A stretch of DNA of 64,000 bases from Massilia soli (lineage in GTDB: Bacteria; Pseudomonadota; Gammaproteobacteria; Burkholderiales; Burkholderiaceae_D). Shown here piece after piece: positions 103-7,963 of this stretch. The notes under the pieces were generated by a model that saw only the letters and a program-made list of their open reading frames with translations, was not told where the DNA came from and searched no databases. Within the stretch, counting starts at the first letter, position 1; every line of letters starts with the position of its first letter. Where the stretch lies: the NCBI RefSeq assembly GCF_016809835.1, contig NZ_JAFBIL020000004.1, positions 62,001-126,000 on the forward strand. The letters run 5' to 3'. Made by a program: the position numbers and the translations under genes.

Positions 103-116
103 TGGTAATCCCCCCA
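103..116 (+). repeat. Left terminal inverted repeat of the IS3-family element
   Basis: TGGTAATCCCCCCA, exactly the reverse complement of bases 1283-1296. Confidence 0.9.
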
Positions 117-171
117 CATAAAGAGCGCGTTCAGAAGTAGAATTTTCTACTTAAGAAACAGAAAGCTCTAC

Positions 172-438
172 ATGAAGACCTCCCGTTTTACCGACAGCCA
201 GATCATCGCCATTCTCAAGCAAGCCGAAGCCGGCAGCCCGGTACCGGAGCTGTGCCGCGAGCACGGCATCAGCAACGCTACGTTCTACAAGTGGCGCTCC
301 AAGTTCGGCGGCATCGATGCCTCGCTGATGGCACGCATGAAGGAGCTGGAGGAGGAGAACCGACGCCTCAAGAAGATGTACGTCGAAGAGCGCCTTAAAG
401 CCGAGATCGTTGCGGAGGCGCTCACAAAAAAATGGTAG
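172..438 (+). CDS. IS3-family transposase OrfA (DNA-binding subunit)
   Basis: This 88-residue protein has an HTH_8-type helix-turn-helix (roughly residues 5-45, with [17 protein letters not shown]) followed by a leucine-zipper-like coiled coil (about 52-75), the usual OrfA layout. It binds the element ends and, fused to OrfB, forms the transposase. The gene ends in a run of seven A (426-432) read in frame as A AAA AAA, a classic slippery heptamer for programmed -1 frameshifting into orfB. Both frames overlap exactly there. Confidence 0.93.
426..432 (+). promoter_or_regulatory. A7 slippery site for -1 frameshift between orfA and orfB
   Basis: Seven consecutive A lie in the zero frame as A AAA AAA, seven bases before the orfA stop. 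A -1 slip enters the orfB frame, giving the OrfAB fusion that is the working transposase of IS3-family elements. The slip itself is inferred from the family. Confidence 0.7.
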
Positions 439-1256
439 CGCCTCAGCGGCGGGAGATGGCGCAATGGGCCGTGTTGGAGCGATCAGCCACGGTCAAGCTG
501 GCATGTCAGGCGTTCGGCATCAGTCAGACCTGCTACCGGTACAAGGCCAAGCTGGACGCGGAAAACGGCCTCATTGCCGACTGGCTGGTGAGGCTGACGA
601 ACAACCAGCGCAACTGGGGCTTCGGGCTGTGCTTCCTGTACCTGCGCAACGTGAAAGGCTTCAAATGGAACCACAAGCGCGTCTACCGGATTTACCGTGA
701 ACTCGAGCTGAACCTGCGGATCAAGCCGCGCCATCGCCTGGTGCGCGAAAAACCGTTGCCGCTGGCGGTGCCGGCCGCGATCAACCAGAGCTGGTCGATG
801 GACTTCATGCACGATCAGCTCGCCGATGGGCGCAGCATCCGGCTGTTCAATGTGATCGACGACTTCAACCGCGAAGGCCTGGGGATCGAAGTCGATTTCT
901 CGCTACCGTCCGAACGCGTGATCCGCTCGCTCGACCGCATCATCGAATGGCGTGGCAAGCCCGAAGCGATCCGCTGCGACAACGGTCCTGAATACATCAG
1001 CGCAGTGACCCTGGGGTGGGCTGCAAAGCGCGGCATCCGCATCGATTTCATCCAGCCCGGCCAGCCGCAGCAGAACGCTTACGTCGAGCGTTACAACAGG
1101 ACGGTTCGCTACGACTGGCTTGCCCATCACCTGTTCGAGACGCTCGACGAAATCCAGGAATTTGCCACCAACTGGTTGTGGACCTACAATCACGACCGGC
1201 CCAACATGGCACTCGGCGGAATTACGCCAAAACAGAAATTGGCCCTTGCCGCTTAA
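432..1256 (+). CDS. IS3-family transposase OrfB (DDE integrase catalytic subunit)
   Basis: A protein of 274 residues with an HTH_21-like N-terminal part and an rve integrase core. The catalytic triad is visible: Asp in WSMDFMHD (about residue 120), Asp in IRCDNGPEY (about 182) and Glu in [10 protein letters not shown] (about 218). The C-terminal part [11 protein letters not shown] is the usual IS3 signature. It cuts and joins DNA ends during copy-paste transposition. It is probably made mainly as the OrfAB frameshift product; the ATG at 432 would give OrfB alone. No frameshift or stop interrupts it. Confidence 0.94.
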
Positions 1257-1282
1257 CCTCTACTTTTAGCATGCTCTAAAAA

Positions 1283-1296
1283 TGGGGGGATTACCA
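1283..1296 (-). repeat. Right terminal inverted repeat of the IS3-family element
   Basis: TGGGGGGATTACCA, the exact reverse complement of the left end at 103-116. Confidence 0.9.
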
Positions 1297-1297
1297 T

Positions 1298-1414
1298 ATG
1301 GGCGGCTTCACGCTCCATCATGGTATCCGCCACGGCGCACCCATCCTCATCGCCGAGCACCACGACCAGCAGGCCGACGAGCTGTCCGGCGTCTGGTTTG
1401 ATGACGGCCAGTGA
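1298..1414 (+). pseudogene. 3' part of the small gene interrupted by the IS3 element
   Basis: From the codon ATG at 1298 the frame reads MGGFTLHHGIRHGAPILIAE and ends with a TGA at 1412-1414, 38 residues after the junction. It continues the frame seen at 3-102. The stop codon overlaps a GTG that could start the next gene, so the interrupted gene and the following two appear to have been one compact operon. Function not recognised. It could also be translated alone from the ATG at the junction. Confidence 0.45.
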
Positions 1415-1428
1415 CGAAGCGAGCGACC

Positions 1429-1764
1429 ATGCGGAATATCAAATTCTCCAACCTCGACCCGACCACTAAGCACGCCGTGTTCTGGCTTGCCGATGAAGCT
1501 GAAACTCTGACGGCAGTCGTCACCGCCGCCGCTTATCACATTGGCGAAATCTTCGAGGCCGCCGCGTTCCTGAAAGAGTTCCCGAAAGGGACCGAGGCGC
1601 ATACCGCACTGGCCGAACGACTGCGACTTGGCGGCACCAGCGGGGAAAGTATCCTGGACTGCATCAAGCGTGTAGTGCCTGTCTATCTGTGCCTGGGCGA
1701 GAGCACAGACGCCGCGCTTGACGAATTGCTGGTGGAACTCAAGAACCGGTCTGCGGCCTCCTGA
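1429..1764 (+). CDS. Unrecognised 111-residue protein in an accessory operon
   Basis: A mostly helical, slightly acidic soluble protein without a signal peptide or membrane segment that I can see. I chose the ATG at 1429, preceded by an AG-rich stretch (gaagcgag); a GTG at 1411 that overlaps the previous stop would add six residues. Its stop overlaps the next start (TGATG at 1762-1766), which indicates translational coupling with the following gene. No family recognised; the setting beside an IS element and a defence-like gene points to a mobile cargo gene. Confidence 0.6.
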   Translation: MRNIKFSNLDPTTKHAVFWLADEAETLTAVVTAAAYHIGEIFEAAAFLKEFPKGTEAHTALAERLRLGGTSGESILDCIKRVVPVYLCLGESTDAALDELLVELKNRSAAS

Positions 1765-2480
1765 TGCAACGGGATGCACCAGCAGCCGCCGAACGATCGG
1801 CAACGACATACACGCCGTTCTCGTCTCTGTGGAACGCGGTCACGCCTGATGCCTTGGACGAAGCGCGGCGGAGGGTGACGAAACTCGGCAGGGCCGACCT
1901 GATCCGGCGATACCGTACGGCATTTACGGACGGGAGGCGGCTGACTGCCTACGTCCTCGCGGGGGAGTTGGTAGAGCGCGGCGTCCCGCCATGCTTTTGG
2001 CATGAAATGCTGGCGCTGGATAGGTGCAGCGTCAACCAGCGCGCTGACCTCGCGTTCACCGACTTGGCTTGGTTGCGCCGCTGGCACCCCGGTCATGCAA
2101 GCGCCGTGCGATATCAACGAGGTAAGGCGCTATTGATCGGCACAGATGCCGTATTTCACCGTGAAGCTGGGTTCGCTATCTTCGAAGGCAAGCGCCCAGC
2201 TTGGAAGATCGTCGGTTCACTAAGCATGACGGAGCGCCAGCAGTGGGAATCGGCATATCTGCGCTCGACGCCCACCAAAAGTGAGGCTGAAGCCACAGCC
2301 ATCCTTAGCGAGCGGGTGCAACTGGCATTGCTTGACGACCTGCGAACGACCCGCCGAACAGCAACGTTTGGTGAGGCCGAGTCGGCGACAACCCTTGCCC
2401 GCCGCCACGCACTGTGGCGCTGCTCCCGCATGGTTAGTATAAAAGTCCGACCGAGATTGCAGCACGCTACCATCAAATGA
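1764..2480 (+). CDS. Unrecognised protein, C-terminus apparently frameshifted
   Basis: A 238-residue frame coupled to the previous gene. I do not recognise a domain. The last part reads as Arg-rich nonsense after codon AAA at 2441-2443. One extra A in that run would continue the frame to 2572 and add SPTEIAARYHQMTG, then PITRQAAAKQLKKV, which looks like a helix-turn-helix. So the gene has probably lost one base (or the sequence has an error) and a DNA-binding C-terminus is cut off. Base composition is between that of the island and the core genome. Confidence 0.55.
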   Translation: MQRDAPAAAERSATTYTPFSSLWNAVTPDALDEARRRVTKLGRADLIRRYRTAFTDGRRLTAYVLAGELVERGVPPCFWHEMLALDRCSVNQRADLAFTDLAWLRRWHPGHASAVRYQRGKALLIGTDAVFHREAGFAIFEGKRPAWKIVGSLSMTERQQWESAYLRSTPTKSEAEATAILSERVQLALLDDLRTTRRTATFGEAESATTLARRHALWRCSRMVSIKVRPRLQHATIK

Positions 2481-3277: not shown

Positions 3278-5731
3278 ATGTTAGATGCCGAAACCGCTAG
3301 CCGGGTCCGAGACGCACTGTTCGCTCAAAAATACAATTTGCTGCTTGGGGCTGGTGTTTCACTTGACTCGAATGACCGCAATAATGACCCAATAATGGGG
3401 GCTGAGGCGCTCAGGACTAGCCTCTGCGAACTGACCGGCTCTCGCGCTAGTTCGCCACTGTGGCGCGTTGCAGGGCATCTAACGCCTGAACAGGTCGAAA
3501 CGCATCTTAGAAAACCCTTTCATGGTTGCAAGGGCGGTCCTACGGTTCGCGCAATTACCAAGTTCTCTTGGAAAACTGCGTTTACGCTAAACATTGACGA
3601 TGCCCTTGAAAACGCATACGAAACCGAGCCAGGCCGCCTACAATCTATAGTTTCAGTGAACTATACGCGGGAATACGAGATTTTCCGTAATCCGCAAGAG
3701 TTACCGTTAGTTCATCTCCATGGGTTTGTAAGAAAACCTGAAGATAAATTCATTTTTTCGCTACAGGAATATGCAACCCTACAGCGCGGCCTAAATCCCT
3801 GGGTGCAGGTACTTTCAGGACTCATAGTGTCGGAGCCCTTTATAATCGCTGGTACTGCGCTGTTTGAACCTGACCTCGAATACTTTTTTGCGCATCGCCC
3901 CAGCAATGCGGAGGTACTCGCCCGCGCACCATCCATACTTGTCGAACCCTACCCTGATACCGGCACGCGTAAGGATTGCGAACGGCTGCGCTTAGTGCTT
4001 GTTGAGGCGACTTTGGAGGATTTTCTCGCGTGGCTTACTGCCGAATATGGCCCACCTCCGACTCCCCTGGCGCTGCGAGAGCCGCAAGTAAGACCGCGAG
4101 TCGTGGGCGGCACACCAGTTTTCACTAGTACGGCATTTTGGTCTGAATTCGACTTCGTACAGCCGTCGCAGGCCGAATCAAGCACACCGCCAGACAAGCC
4201 TAGCAGCTTTATGTTCGGCCGCCCACCAGATTGGGATGATATCGCGCAGAAGCGGGATGTACCGTTGCACTCACAACTTCGGCTAATAGATGAGGTTCGC
4301 AGATGGCAGGCAAGCAGTGAACAGAATCAGGTTCTATGTTTGGCCGGCCGCGCGGGGGCAGGGAAAACCACAACAATTCGAAGGGTAGCAGTTGAGTTAG
4401 CGAGTCATGGGATACAGGTCTTTCACCTAAAGGCTCGCGGCGGTATTGATACCGATTCTGCGGTTCGCTTCTTGTCTACTGTAGCCGATCCTATTCTATT
4501 GACAACAGATTCATTCGCGGAACACGGCGAGCAACTGCTCGACATTATTGCGGAAATGGGGGGCACCAAACGAATCTGTATTTTGGCGGAGGAGCGTCAA
4601 TACAGAATGCGGCTAGTGAAGGATATTCTTGAGGGTATTCCAAATCGGATTATTCCTGATGAACAATGGCGAATTGAAGAGAGTGTGGAACTTATCCGCC
4701 GTTACTCCGATTTGGGGCTGATAGGTAACGCGGCGGCAGTCACTGATCCACGTTCTTTTGCCAATCAACTCGCAGAAAACACTGCTGCAGAAAGTGTGTG
4801 CCGGATTCTAAATGATTTTAGACCACTTCGAGCGATAGTTCGATCCCTATGGAACGATACAATTGCAACTGGACGTCCTGCTCTATTGGCAACCGCTGTC
4901 GCCTATTACTGTCATCCAGTTGGCGTGCACCGCGAGATTATTCTCGCGATGGCCAGCGATGATCTACTCAAAGATTTGAATGCGGCTGATGCCCCACTGC
5001 GGGTGGTTGAGCATCCGGACAATAGCGATTACCTGTTGCCCGCCAATGGATCAATTGCCGCTTTGTTAGTCGAAGAAATGGCGAGCAAAAAATCCTCCCG
5101 TCTACTGGAGATTGTTGTTGAGCTTGCCAACGAGCTAGCTCCCTTTGTCACTCGCGCTACGATCAAACAGCGTTCGCCAGAAGCACGGCTAGCTGGACGA
5201 CTCTTCGATGCAGACGGATTAATGCCTGAACTTTTGAAGGCAAATGTGGATAAGTTCTACGAGCTAACCCACGAGAAATGGAAATGGAATAGCCGCTACT
5301 GGGAGCAACGTGCGCTTTTCATCAGCGACCGGGACAGAGTGCTCTCGATCCAGCACGCTCGATACGCTGTCGCAATCGAACACCACCCTTTCCCGATGAC
5401 CACGCTTGCAAAAGTCTTGTTTTCGAGTATTAAAGAGGGAGTAGGTGATCGACAAGCTTACTTCAATGAAGCATTAGACTTGATGGAAGAAACATTAAGA
5501 ATTGAAGCAACGTGGGAACGCGGACGATCCAAGAAAGCATATTGGACCACGATAGAAGGGGTTAGCGCCTATGTGAATTCCGGAGGGGTTTTAACTCTTC
5601 GTCAAACTCAATTTGTAGAAAAAACCATTATCAATATAAGAAAAACTTTTGATGATGATACTGACTTGCACGACCGCGCCGCACAACTTGCTGATCGCAT
5701 TATTCAAACAAACGGCGGAACTGAAAAATAA
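3278..5731 (+). CDS. SIR2-like domain fused to a P-loop (STAND-like) NTPase; candidate anti-phage NADase (Avs5-like layout)
   Basis: An 817-residue protein. Residues about 1-255 look like a SIR2 domain: GAGVS at 24-28, TLNIDD at 103-108 (Asn105, Asp107) and HLHG at 146-149 (candidate catalytic His148). After a linker, residues about 330-520 hold a P-loop NTPase with GRAGAGKTT (357-365, Lys363) and a hydrophobic strand ending in Asp411. The C-terminal 300 residues look helical, the place where related proteins sense phage proteins. Known SIR2-STAND proteins assemble on recognising a phage product and destroy NAD+, killing the infected cell; that activity is inferred here. Start: ATG after GGAG. 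The gene is clearly AT-richer than the core genome and stands alone on its strand in an island with an IS and an HNH remnant, which suggests horizontal transfer. Confidence 0.85.
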   Translation: MLDAETASRVRDALFAQKYNLLLGAGVSLDSNDRNNDPIMGAEALRTSLCELTGSRASSPLWRVAGHLTPEQVETHLRKPFHGCKGGPTVRAITKFSWKTAFTLNIDDALENAYETEPGRLQSIVSVNYTREYEIFRNPQELPLVHLHGFVRKPEDKFIFSLQEYATLQRGLNPWVQVLSGLIVSEPFIIAGTALFEPDLEYFFAHRPSNAEVLARAPSILVEPYPDTGTRKDCERLRLVLVEATLEDFLAWLTAEYGPPPTPLALREPQVRPRVVGGTPVFTSTAFWSEFDFVQPSQAESSTPPDKPSSFMFGRPPDWDDIAQKRDVPLHSQLRLIDEVRRWQASSEQNQVLCLAGRAGAGKTTTIRRVAVELASHGIQVFHLKARGGIDTDSAVRFLSTVADPILLTTDSFAEHGEQLLDIIAEMGGTKRICILAEERQYRMRLVKDILEGIPNRIIPDEQWRIEESVELIRRYSDLGLIGNAAAVTDPRSFANQLAENTAAESVCRILNDFRPLRAIVRSLWNDTIATGRPALLATAVAYYCHPVGVHREIILAMASDDLLKDLNAADAPLRVVEHPDNSDYLLPANGSIAALLVEEMASKKSSRLLEIVVELANELAPFVTRATIKQRSPEARLAGRLFDADGLMPELLKANVDKFYELTHEKWKWNSRYWEQRALFISDRDRVLSIQHARYAVAIEHHPFPMTTLAKVLFSSIKEGVGDRQAYFNEALDLMEETLRIEATWERGRSKKAYWTTIEGVSAYVNSGGVLTLRQTQFVEKTIINIRKTFDDDTDLHDRAAQLADRIIQTNGGTEK

Positions 5732-5882: not shown

Positions 5883-6029
5883 ATGAGGTTAAAGCCTGAA
5901 CTGAGTGTTATCGGAAATCTGCTTGAGATTACTACGATAGTAGACTTTGCGTACACCGCCTTCAAAGTGAAAGTCTTAGAATATAAGGATTACCGCGATG
6001 GCGTAGCGTTCATCAACTTTGGAGTTTAA
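5883..6029 (+). CDS. Possible small protein of 48 residues in the AT-rich island
   Basis: An open frame from ATG 5883 to TAA 6027-6029 beginning [20 protein letters not shown]. It has no clear ribosome-binding site (only agaaag) and no recognised family. It overlaps the start of the HNH remnant in another frame. It may be a real small gene, part of a decayed gene, or chance. Confidence 0.22.
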
Positions 6030-6234
6030 CCCGTCTAACCTTATACGTCGGAAAGGTGGCTCTGGCCAGGCGTTGACGGGTAAAATCCTCAACAACCGGG
6101 ACTGCAGCATCGCCTTCAAAATTGAAGAGATGGAGGCAGACCACATCACGCGGTGGCACGAAGGCGGCAAGACTGAAGCGGAAAATTGTCAGATGCTCTG
6201 TATCGAGGACAACCGAAAAAAAGGCGGTAAATGA
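6019..6234 (+). pseudogene. Remnant of an HNH endonuclease (C-terminal HNH motif)
   Basis: The last 35 residues read [20 protein letters not shown] followed by [14 protein letters not shown]. This is the C-terminal half of an HNH nuclease motif (Asp-His, then two Asn), as found at the end of DUF262-HNH proteins related to GmrSD-type restriction enzymes. The N-terminal part of the motif (the usual Cys pair) and any upstream domain are missing; the frame opens only at a TTG after a stop at 6004-6006. The likely meaning is a decayed restriction or defence gene left beside the SIR2 gene. A free-standing small HNH protein is less likely because the fold is incomplete. Confidence 0.6.
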
Positions 6235-6745
6235 CGGGGTCCAACCAATCGGCGCAACGGAAGGGCCTTTCGGGGCCTGCCGATGATCGCGCGCTGAACG
6301 TCTGCTCCCTAAGCGCGAAAGACGACATCGGGACATAAGCGACCTGTCGTGCTAGTCGCGCTACCCAGCCGGGGCGGCACCGGCCCCATCCCGGATCTCG
6401 GCGTGTTGTAAACCACCAACAGCATAAAAAAGCGTATATCGAACTTGAAGTGAGCCTAGTGCCGTTGGTCGGGAATCGCAATGCTCACACTGCAAAAATA
6501 TTTGACGGTACCGTTGACGGTATCGCGGCAGGCAAAATCATCAACACCCAGCATCCATGCGGGTTTCAAGACTTTATTCAGTTCCACCTATCACCAAGAA
6601 CATGTCCCTGGCTTCCAGGGACTTACAGAAACCCGCATCTCTCCTCGAGAGAATGCGGGTTTTTTGTTTTGCATGCGCCTTCCGCAAGCACTGCTGGCTG
6701 GAGGTCGAGTGCGCTTCGCATATCCGCACGGACCTCCTTTTCCCA
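6235..6745. other. Gene-free right edge of the accessory island
   Basis: About 500 bases with no convincing coding frame on either strand. It contains a strong plus-strand terminator hairpin at 6629-6666 although no intact plus-strand gene precedes it, and the 10-mer ATGCGGGTTT occurs twice (6557-6566 and 6653-6662). GC content rises to chromosomal level at the end. It may be the junction between island and chromosome. Confidence 0.5.
6629..6666 (+). terminator. Rho-independent terminator, no intact gene upstream
   Basis: The arms AAACCCGCAT (6629-6638) and ATGCGGGTTT (6653-6662) pair perfectly, the inner bases CTCTC and GAGAG extend the stem, and a T-run follows. It points along the plus strand and faces the end of ftsZ on the minus strand, so it probably belonged to a gene lost from the island edge. 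Confidence 0.75.
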
Positions 6746-7963
6746 CTACCTCTTCATGTCCGCCGTCAACGAATGCGGGGAATCCTCACTGACGTTCGAG
6801 GCAGGCTGACGCGGCGTCATGCCTGGCCGCAGCGCCTGATCAGCCGAGGCCGCCTGCACAGCTGCCTGGAACGCATTCCTGCGCTGGATCGATTGTGGCG
6901 GTGGCGTCTCCCTCAGCACGCCGCTGCGGAACTGGCCTGGCGAGCCCGGACCCGGGCCGGCACCTAGCGCTGAGCGCGTCATTGGCGATTGCGCCGCGGT
7001 AGCAGCCACCTCAACGGGCCGGTTCAAGCCGGTGGCCACCACCGTCACGCGCATGGCATCGCCAAGGGTATCGTCGAAGACCGCACCAAACTTGATAATG
7101 GCGTCTTCGCTGGTTTGCGCGCAAATCACGTTCATCACCAGCTTGGTTTCGCGCAGTTTCAGTGTTTCTTCGGATGCCGCGATGTTGACTAGCAGTCCGC
7201 GCGCGGTATGCAGGTTCGAACCATCGAGCAATGGGCAGGAAATTGCCTCCTCAGCTGCCTTGACGGCACGGTCGTCGCCGGCGTGCTGGGCCGAACCCAT
7301 CATGGCCGTGCCGGTCTGGCGCATCACGGTGCGAACGTCTTCGAAGTCGACGTTGATCATGCCTGGCACGGTGATGATTTCCGCGATGCCGGACACCGCC
7401 TTGCTCAACACCTCGTCGGCGGCAGCGAATGCCTGCTTTTGCGTGATGTCGTCGCCCAGCACTTCCTCGAGACGGCTATTGAGGACGATGACGAGCGAAT
7501 CGACCGACTTCGCCAGCATGGCGATACCCTCGTCCGCAACGCGCATGCGGCGCGCGCCTTCGAACTCGAAAGGCTTCGACACGATACCGACGGTGAGGAT
7601 GCCCATTTCGCGCGCCACTTCGGCCACCACGGGAGCGGCGCCGGTGCCGGTGCCGCCACCCATGCCGGCGGTGAGGAACACCATGTTGGCGCCCTTGAGC
7701 GCGTCGGCGATGATGGTGCGTTCACGAATCGCGGCTTCGCGCCCGATGATCGGGTCGCTGCCCGCCCCAAGTCCGCTTTCGCCGAGCTGGATCCGTTTTT
7801 CGGTCAGGGTATTCGCGAGCGCCTGCGCGTCGGTATTGGCGCAGATGAATTCGATGTCCAGCAGGCCGGAGGAAGCCATATGGTTAACGGCATTGCCGCC
7901 GGCGCCGCCGACGCCGATGACTTTGATGATGGTCTCGGGTTGAGCTTTATTTGTGTCGAACAA
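6746..7963 (-). CDS. ftsZ: Cell-division GTPase FtsZ, second-type paralogue lacking the C-terminal conserved peptide
   Basis: A tubulin-like GTPase of 405 residues. Visible motifs are the N-terminal GVGGAGGNAVNHM (17-29), the tubulin signature GGGTGTGA (102-109) and the T7 loop NVDFEDV (204-210), all expected in a polymerising FtsZ. The C-terminal linker is Pro/Gln-rich and ends SLTADMKR; the usual tail DIPAFLR-like, which binds FtsA, ZipA and others, is absent. The gene is not in a division-and-cell-wall cluster (no ftsA, ftsQ or lpxC beside it), so the normal ftsZ is probably elsewhere. Start: TTG at 7963 with AGGAG six bases upstream; no ATG fits. It may modulate the Z-ring or be a redundant copy. 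Confidence 0.93.
   Translation of the reverse strand: MFDTNKAQPETIIKVIGVGGAGGNAVNHMASSGLLDIEFICANTDAQALANTLTEKRIQLGESGLGAGSDPIIGREAAIRERTIIADALKGANMVFLTAGMGGGTGTGAAPVVAEVAREMGILTVGIVSKPFEFEGARRMRVADEGIAMLAKSVDSLVIVLNSRLEEVLGDDITQKQAFAAADEVLSKAVSGIAEIITVPGMINVDFEDVRTVMRQTGTAMMGSAQHAGDDRAVKAAEEAISCPLLDGSNLHTARGLLVNIAASEETLKLRETKLVMNVICAQTSEDAIIKFGAVFDDTLGDAMRVTVVATGLNRPVEVAATAAQSPMTRSALGAGPGPGSPGQFRSGVLRETPPPQSIQRRNAFQAAVQAASADQALRPGMTPRQPASNVSEDSPHSLTADMKR

Follow-up and report, generated by a model that had tools for sequence, protein, structure and literature searches.

The gene at positions 3278 to 5731 of a 64,000-nucleotide stretch of Massilia soli DNA (the window, here always the whole stretch) probably encodes a one-protein immune receptor of the Avs5-like kind, which would be triggered by phage and deplete nicotinamide adenine dinucleotide (NAD+); we put this reading at a probability of about 0.8. 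The product, referred to here as the SIR2-STAND protein, has three domains with intact catalytic-type and Walker residues, its predicted model has an Avs5/SAMD9-like fold, and its gene stands alone, without a partner gene, in a genomic island.

Domain architecture and predicted fold

The SIR2-STAND protein contains a SIR2-like domain, a STAND nucleoside triphosphatase (NTPase) domain and a helical C-terminus, at the following window positions.

3278..5731, + strand: SIR2-STAND gene, intact from ATG to stop, 817 residues (open reading frame (ORF) reading and Pfam)
3278..4048, + strand: SIR2_2 domain, about residues 1-257 (Pfam PF13289 at residues 100-230; VIA-align rows of ThsA, KomC and DSR2 over about 1-260; conservation)
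4205..4615, + strand: STAND NTPase domain, nSTAND_NTPase5, residues 310-446, including D411 and R440 (PF25199, 8e-22)
4346..4369, + strand: Walker A motif GRAGAGKT, residues 357-364 (sequence; lysine in 51 of 54 aligned sequences)
4952..5728, + strand: C-terminal TPR-like helical array, residues 559-817, putative sensor, with Y661, W675 and Q677

The motifs read in the protein are GAGVS (24-28), TLNIDD (103-108), HLHG (146-149) and GRAGAGKTT (357-365), and the catalytic-type residues of the SIR2 domain are N105, D107, H148-G149 and E197. These SIR2 and STAND motifs exceed chance: SIR2_2 scores 36.8 bits in Pfam (cut-off 24.5, residues 100-230) and nSTAND_NTPase5 scores 78.1 bits (cut-off 34). 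The predicted model aligns over nearly its whole length with solved Avs5 and with human SAMD9. The original prediction, made from the DNA alone, had proposed a SIR2-like domain, a P-loop NTPase of the STAND type, and an Avs5-like SIR2-STAND order; the Pfam domains and the model alignments, which show an Avs5-like fold, agree on all three. It had also described the C-terminus as helical, which holds, and as not recognizable, which does not: by fold, this part is a TPR-like helical array aligning with residues 579-847 of EfAvs5 and 941-1308 of SAMD9. A plausible ribosome-binding stretch precedes the ATG on reading of the sequence. Used as a query against its own 4.99-Mb genome, the protein matched only itself (E 0.001).

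Correspondence with Avs5

Avs5, or AVAST type 5 (EfAvs5, 9jap; the AVAST5 filament, 9nc9; and PaAvs5-1 to PaAvs5-3), shares with the SIR2-STAND protein the order of SIR2 domain, STAND NTPase and helical repeats, the length class, the catalytic-type and Walker residues, the Y/W/Q residues of the repeat domain, and the alignment over the whole length of the model. In the available part of the PaAvs5-1 report (PMC12931631), N110, D112 and E202 are needed, N153 of the NG motif matters, Walker A lies at 357-364, R438 contributes, Y661, W675 and Q677 are conserved, and nSTAND3 is the STAND domain annotated for PaAvs5. Counterparts in the SIR2-STAND protein are found at an offset of -5 in the SIR2 domain and then at 357-364, 440, 661, 675 and 677. 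The SIR2 motif set of GAGxS, TTNxD, HG or NG, and an acidic equivalent of E202 is present as GAGVS, TLNID (with L in place of the second T), HG at 148-149, and E197; the NTPase (PF25199) has Walker A with K363 and the conserved arginine as R440; and the C-terminal helical repeats have Tyr661, Trp675 and Gln677, judged by the published PaAvs5-1 numbers. The SIR2-STAND protein has HG where PaAvs5-1 has NG.

In an alignment of 54 sequences, 53 have N105 and D107. The remaining row is gapped there and is, in our reading, the Neoroseomonas ORF with the frame change, whose N-terminus is missing. G149 and G192 are kept in 54, K363 in 51, R440 in 50, Q677 in 47, Y661 in 45 and W675 in 43. At position 148, 30 sequences have H and 24 have N; at position 197, 42 have E and 11 have D. 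The HG and NG forms are strongly clustered on the tree described below (3 changes, versus 17.9 in shuffles). Every structural sign that we examined points to Avs5-like working, and the protein is homologous to Avs5 at the profile level.

Likeness to ThsA (Thoeris), DSR2, KomC and SIR2/HerA is mainly confined to the SIR2 domain, and these proteins have other triggers or partners.

A sparse clade and a single-gene setting

Genome scans at E 0.001, with the protein's own genome counted in, gave matches in 4 of 17 genomes of the genus, 15 of 392 of the family and 5 of 369 of the class, and all but one of these matches were limited to the SIR2 and/or STAND parts or to a short stretch. The alignment scan of named genomes found 93 relatives among 256 stretches, 80 of which were kept, and five among ten stretches in viral contigs. 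Four relatives, from Sphingomonas, Sphingopyxis, Neoroseomonas and a metagenome-assembled genome (MAG), resemble the SIR2-STAND protein over almost the full length, with 31-34% identity. The nearest relative (37% over an N-terminal piece) belongs to a genome of the same genus, G560, and is cut by an insertion sequence (IS); a second copy of this element's transposase, which matches Tn5-type transposases, lies nearby.

We built a tree of 55 rows over residues 1-600 from the 54 aligned sequences and the G560 piece, leaving out published Avs5 sequences. The SIR2-STAND protein lies in a deep, sparse clade of its own, with six sequences seen: it groups with the G560, Neoroseomonas, Sphingomonas, Sphingopyxis and MAG sequences with support of 100/100, and the stem of this group measures 1.3 changes per column. 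Identity to the SIR2-STAND protein over the C-terminus (601-817) is 28-36% within the clade (four rows) and 9-17% in the other 49 rows. Since this divergent C-terminus would be the phage-sensing part, a clade-specific trigger is plausible, and because the clade is deep and separate, the trigger may differ from that known for other Avs5 clades. We regard it as evenly balanced whether the six sequences form a separate SIR2-STAND branch, outside the Avs5 clades tested so far, with a C-terminal array that recognizes a phage protein other than JADA.

Two members of this clade deserve a comment. In G560, a TIR-like gene (L028:5809-6684, + strand) scores 25.6 bits with PF13676, just under the cut-off of 28, and has no NCBIfam match; some 140 bases separate it from the C-terminal piece of the homologue cut by the IS, and the two possibly form a defence cluster. 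In the Neoroseomonas terrae homologue (L039:7777-8180), the N-terminus is in a different frame from the rest, with a short repeated stretch at the change, which could be real or an assembly error.

The neighbors of the homologues from the named genomes and viral contigs were surveyed as 814 mechanical ORFs within 6 kb, counting families present in at least three loci, with pairs not listed. Six families recur: a serine recombinase (seven loci), an IS transposase (six), two integrase-type recombinases (three each) and two ordinary families (three each), the last two of which look like chance; the names of all six come from ORF reading with no family search. No partner gene recurs among these ORFs, which agrees with the proposal of a single-gene system. 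Several close homologues lie among ordinary chromosomal genes, by ORF reading only.

Proposed mechanism and its weighing

We propose that, at rest, the TPR-like C-terminus would keep the STAND module closed. Binding of a phage protein to the C-terminal array would let the STAND module bind or exchange ATP and open, upon which the protein would oligomerize and switch on its SIR2 domains, and the activated domains would hydrolyze NAD+. Filaments are reported for EfAvs5 and AVAST5 (PDB titles and the available part of PMC12700824).

Several points weigh against this reading. The NADase activity, oligomerization, phage trigger and protection that it includes are carried over from Avs5 homologues, and the match to PaAvs5-1 is one of published residue numbers and motifs, not of a sequence alignment. 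The NCBIfam Avs5 equivalog NF041814 gives 13.8 bits against a threshold of 1000; PADLOC Avs5 (PDLC02170) is not among the ten families matched at E up to 1; and nSTAND3 (PF20720) falls below its Pfam cut-off, at 22.1 versus 27.2 bits. Compared alone with solved structures, the protein matches only ThsA, and not Avs5, at E under 0.001-0.01, and the profile of its own clade (five rows) matches AVAST5 (1.9e-8) and EfAvs5 (7.7e-7) in the PDB, each over one domain. The Foldseek TM-score to EfAvs5 is low, at 0.30, and the root-mean-square deviation in VIA-align is large, at 27.2 Å (7.9 Å for SAMD9); domain placement therefore differs. A sigma-70-type scan alone found no promoter-like site upstream of the gene (5 found elsewhere versus 3.3 expected), and a PADLOC scan of neighbors, covering the two island ORFs listed below, gave no match. 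Some related genes are broken, and so is the integrase of the island, in which a frame change and a stop each occur at least once.

Because the protein is below the NCBIfam, PADLOC and nSTAND3 thresholds, we class it, on these profiles, as an Avs5-like SIR2-STAND protein and not as Avs5 proper. Unlike Avs5, it has nSTAND_NTPase5 instead of nSTAND3, and it belongs to its own deep clade. Its PADLOC matches are partial only, to ThsA, Argonaute-SIR2 and P-loop proteins, and nSTAND3 is matched by 6 of the 54 aligned sequences at E 1e-5.

The same receptor layout might also serve another output. The SIR2 domain could produce a nucleotide signal or ADP-ribosylate proteins rather than cause bulk NAD+ loss, or the protein could control host stress or cell death instead of acting against phage; we consider this unlikely. 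SIR2-like domains show several chemistries, according to the available part of PMC12700824. Two of the SIR2-bearing fold matches, SAMD9 and FAM118B, are human proteins, which would suit such a role, but the bacterial SIR2 rows of the 50-row VIA-align list (ThsA, KomC, DSR2, EfAvs5, AVAST5, SPARSA and SIR2/HerA) are phage- or plasmid-defence proteins, and the catalytic-type N, D and H are retained.

The SIR2-STAND gene lies in an acquired island

The gene encoding this Avs5-like receptor candidate has a G+C content of 50.2%. Right of position 7000, 110 overlapping segments as long as the gene average 64.2% (standard deviation 3.0), and all of them lie above its value. The gene is the largest intact one in an island with the following features, given in window positions or, where a feature lies to the left of the window, in positions on the contig.

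C34:60097-60173: tRNA-Met, left-end partner of the island repeat, 1.8 kb left of the window
C34:60297-61600: broken tyrosine integrase, after the tRNA-Met, in two open pieces
103..1297 (approximate ends), + strand: IS3-family element within the island, with transposase ORFs at 172-438 and 432-1256 (NCBIfam transpos_IS3, 210.6 bits)
1411..1764, + strand: island ORF of 117 residues, no family found (Pfam, PADLOC, NCBIfam)
1764..2480, + strand: island ORF of 238 residues, no family found (Pfam, PADLOC, NCBIfam)
6010..6234, + strand: remnant of an HNH nuclease, reduced to its C-terminal end and without a visible start; 6010-6231 in the Pfam scan (PF01844, 3.6e-10)
6583..6596, + strand: right end of the island, a copy of the tRNA-Met 3' end, TCCACCTATCACCA (repeat match)
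6749..7963, - strand: ftsZ-type gene, right flank beyond the island (TIGR00065, 363.7 bits)

Besides the repeat of the tRNA 3' end, positions 6577-6662 show a 72% match to the end of the tRNA together with the DNA beyond it, and these two matches bound the island, which spans about 8.4 kb at tRNA-Met with 54.1% G+C. Two of five relatives (G420 and G379) have an empty site, with the matches to tRNA-Met and to the right flank only 146 and 164 bases apart, so that in both the ftsZ-type flank adjoins tRNA-Met and the island is missing; no right flank was seen in the stretch examined of each of the remaining three. These observations bear out the original prediction of a gene AT-richer than the core, in an acquired island with an IS element and an HNH remnant around it. 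The miaA gene (TIGR00174) lies left of the window with the tRNA-Met and the integrase, and relatives of the integrase, with 75-88% identity over the catalytic piece, are found in miaA/tRNA loci of three other genomes of the genus (L133, L139 and L140), with a partial one in a fourth (L148); the site therefore seems to have been used repeatedly.

An island with a broken integrase, an IS3 insertion and an HNH remnant could be a decaying one, and the gene an open relic that is no longer expressed or useful. The IS-cut relative in G560 and the lack of a promoter-like site in the upstream scan fit this idea, but no stop interrupts the 817 codons of the gene, none of the key residues is lost and a plausible ribosome-binding stretch precedes the ATG, and we think a relic still less likely than a different output.

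Longer homologues and SAMD9

Thirteen longer homologues (L009, L033, L035, L061, L063, L069, L071, L081, L082, L085, L091, L097 and L119, in one alignment), of about 1010-1050 residues, gain TPR repeats (TPR_19 in 13 of 13) and end in a cold-shock/OB-like part (CSD matched at E 0.01 in 6 of 13). Their SIR2-STAND-TPR-OB order is that of the SAMD9 core, and one side of the tree consists of ten of these homologues (support 100/99). The 60 best PDB rows obtained with their profile do not include SAMD9, which counts against the link. Long forms also occur on plasmids: near vapB/vapC in Vibrio pectenicida (L009:4950-8096), beside a recombinase and a PIN-domain gene in Acinetobacter (L010:4959-8063), and in pieces in Acinetobacter baumannii (L011).

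According to the available part of PMC5445408, the human SAMD9/SAMD9L core and the bacterial SAMD9 family have a SIR2-like, STAND P-loop and TPR order and fold, which the SIR2-STAND protein shares; the bacterial relatives, described in 2017, have AlbA_2 and OB parts, AlbA_2 being lost in some members, and in SAMD9 the Walker A lysine is lost and replaced by glycine. Unlike SAMD9, the SIR2-STAND protein has no AlbA_2, SAM or OB part that we could find (AlbA_2 and OB are absent among its 25 best Pfam rows), and its Walker lysine, K363, is present. That it halts infection as a SAMD9-like protein, through RNA or translation and not NAD+, is very improbable: its fold match to SAMD9 is as long as that to EfAvs5 and the core order is as in the available part of PMC5445408, but the AlbA_2 and OB parts are missing from those Pfam rows, the Walker lysine lost in SAMD9 is intact, and the profile of the protein's own clade does not bring up SAMD9 in its 60 best PDB rows.

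Meaning of the finding

Rather than a new kind of antiviral protein, the SIR2-STAND protein represents a new and distant branch of one already known. The curated Avs5 profiles that we used miss it, so defence surveys relying on them would omit this branch. The wider family ties bacterial antiphage NADases to the human SAMD9 core, in forms with an intact Walker lysine and SIR2 site. Its depth as a clade and its different C-terminus make the branch a good candidate for responding to a new phage trigger, and if the six sequences do recognize a phage protein other than JADA, the NAD+-depleting receptors would gain a new sensing specificity.
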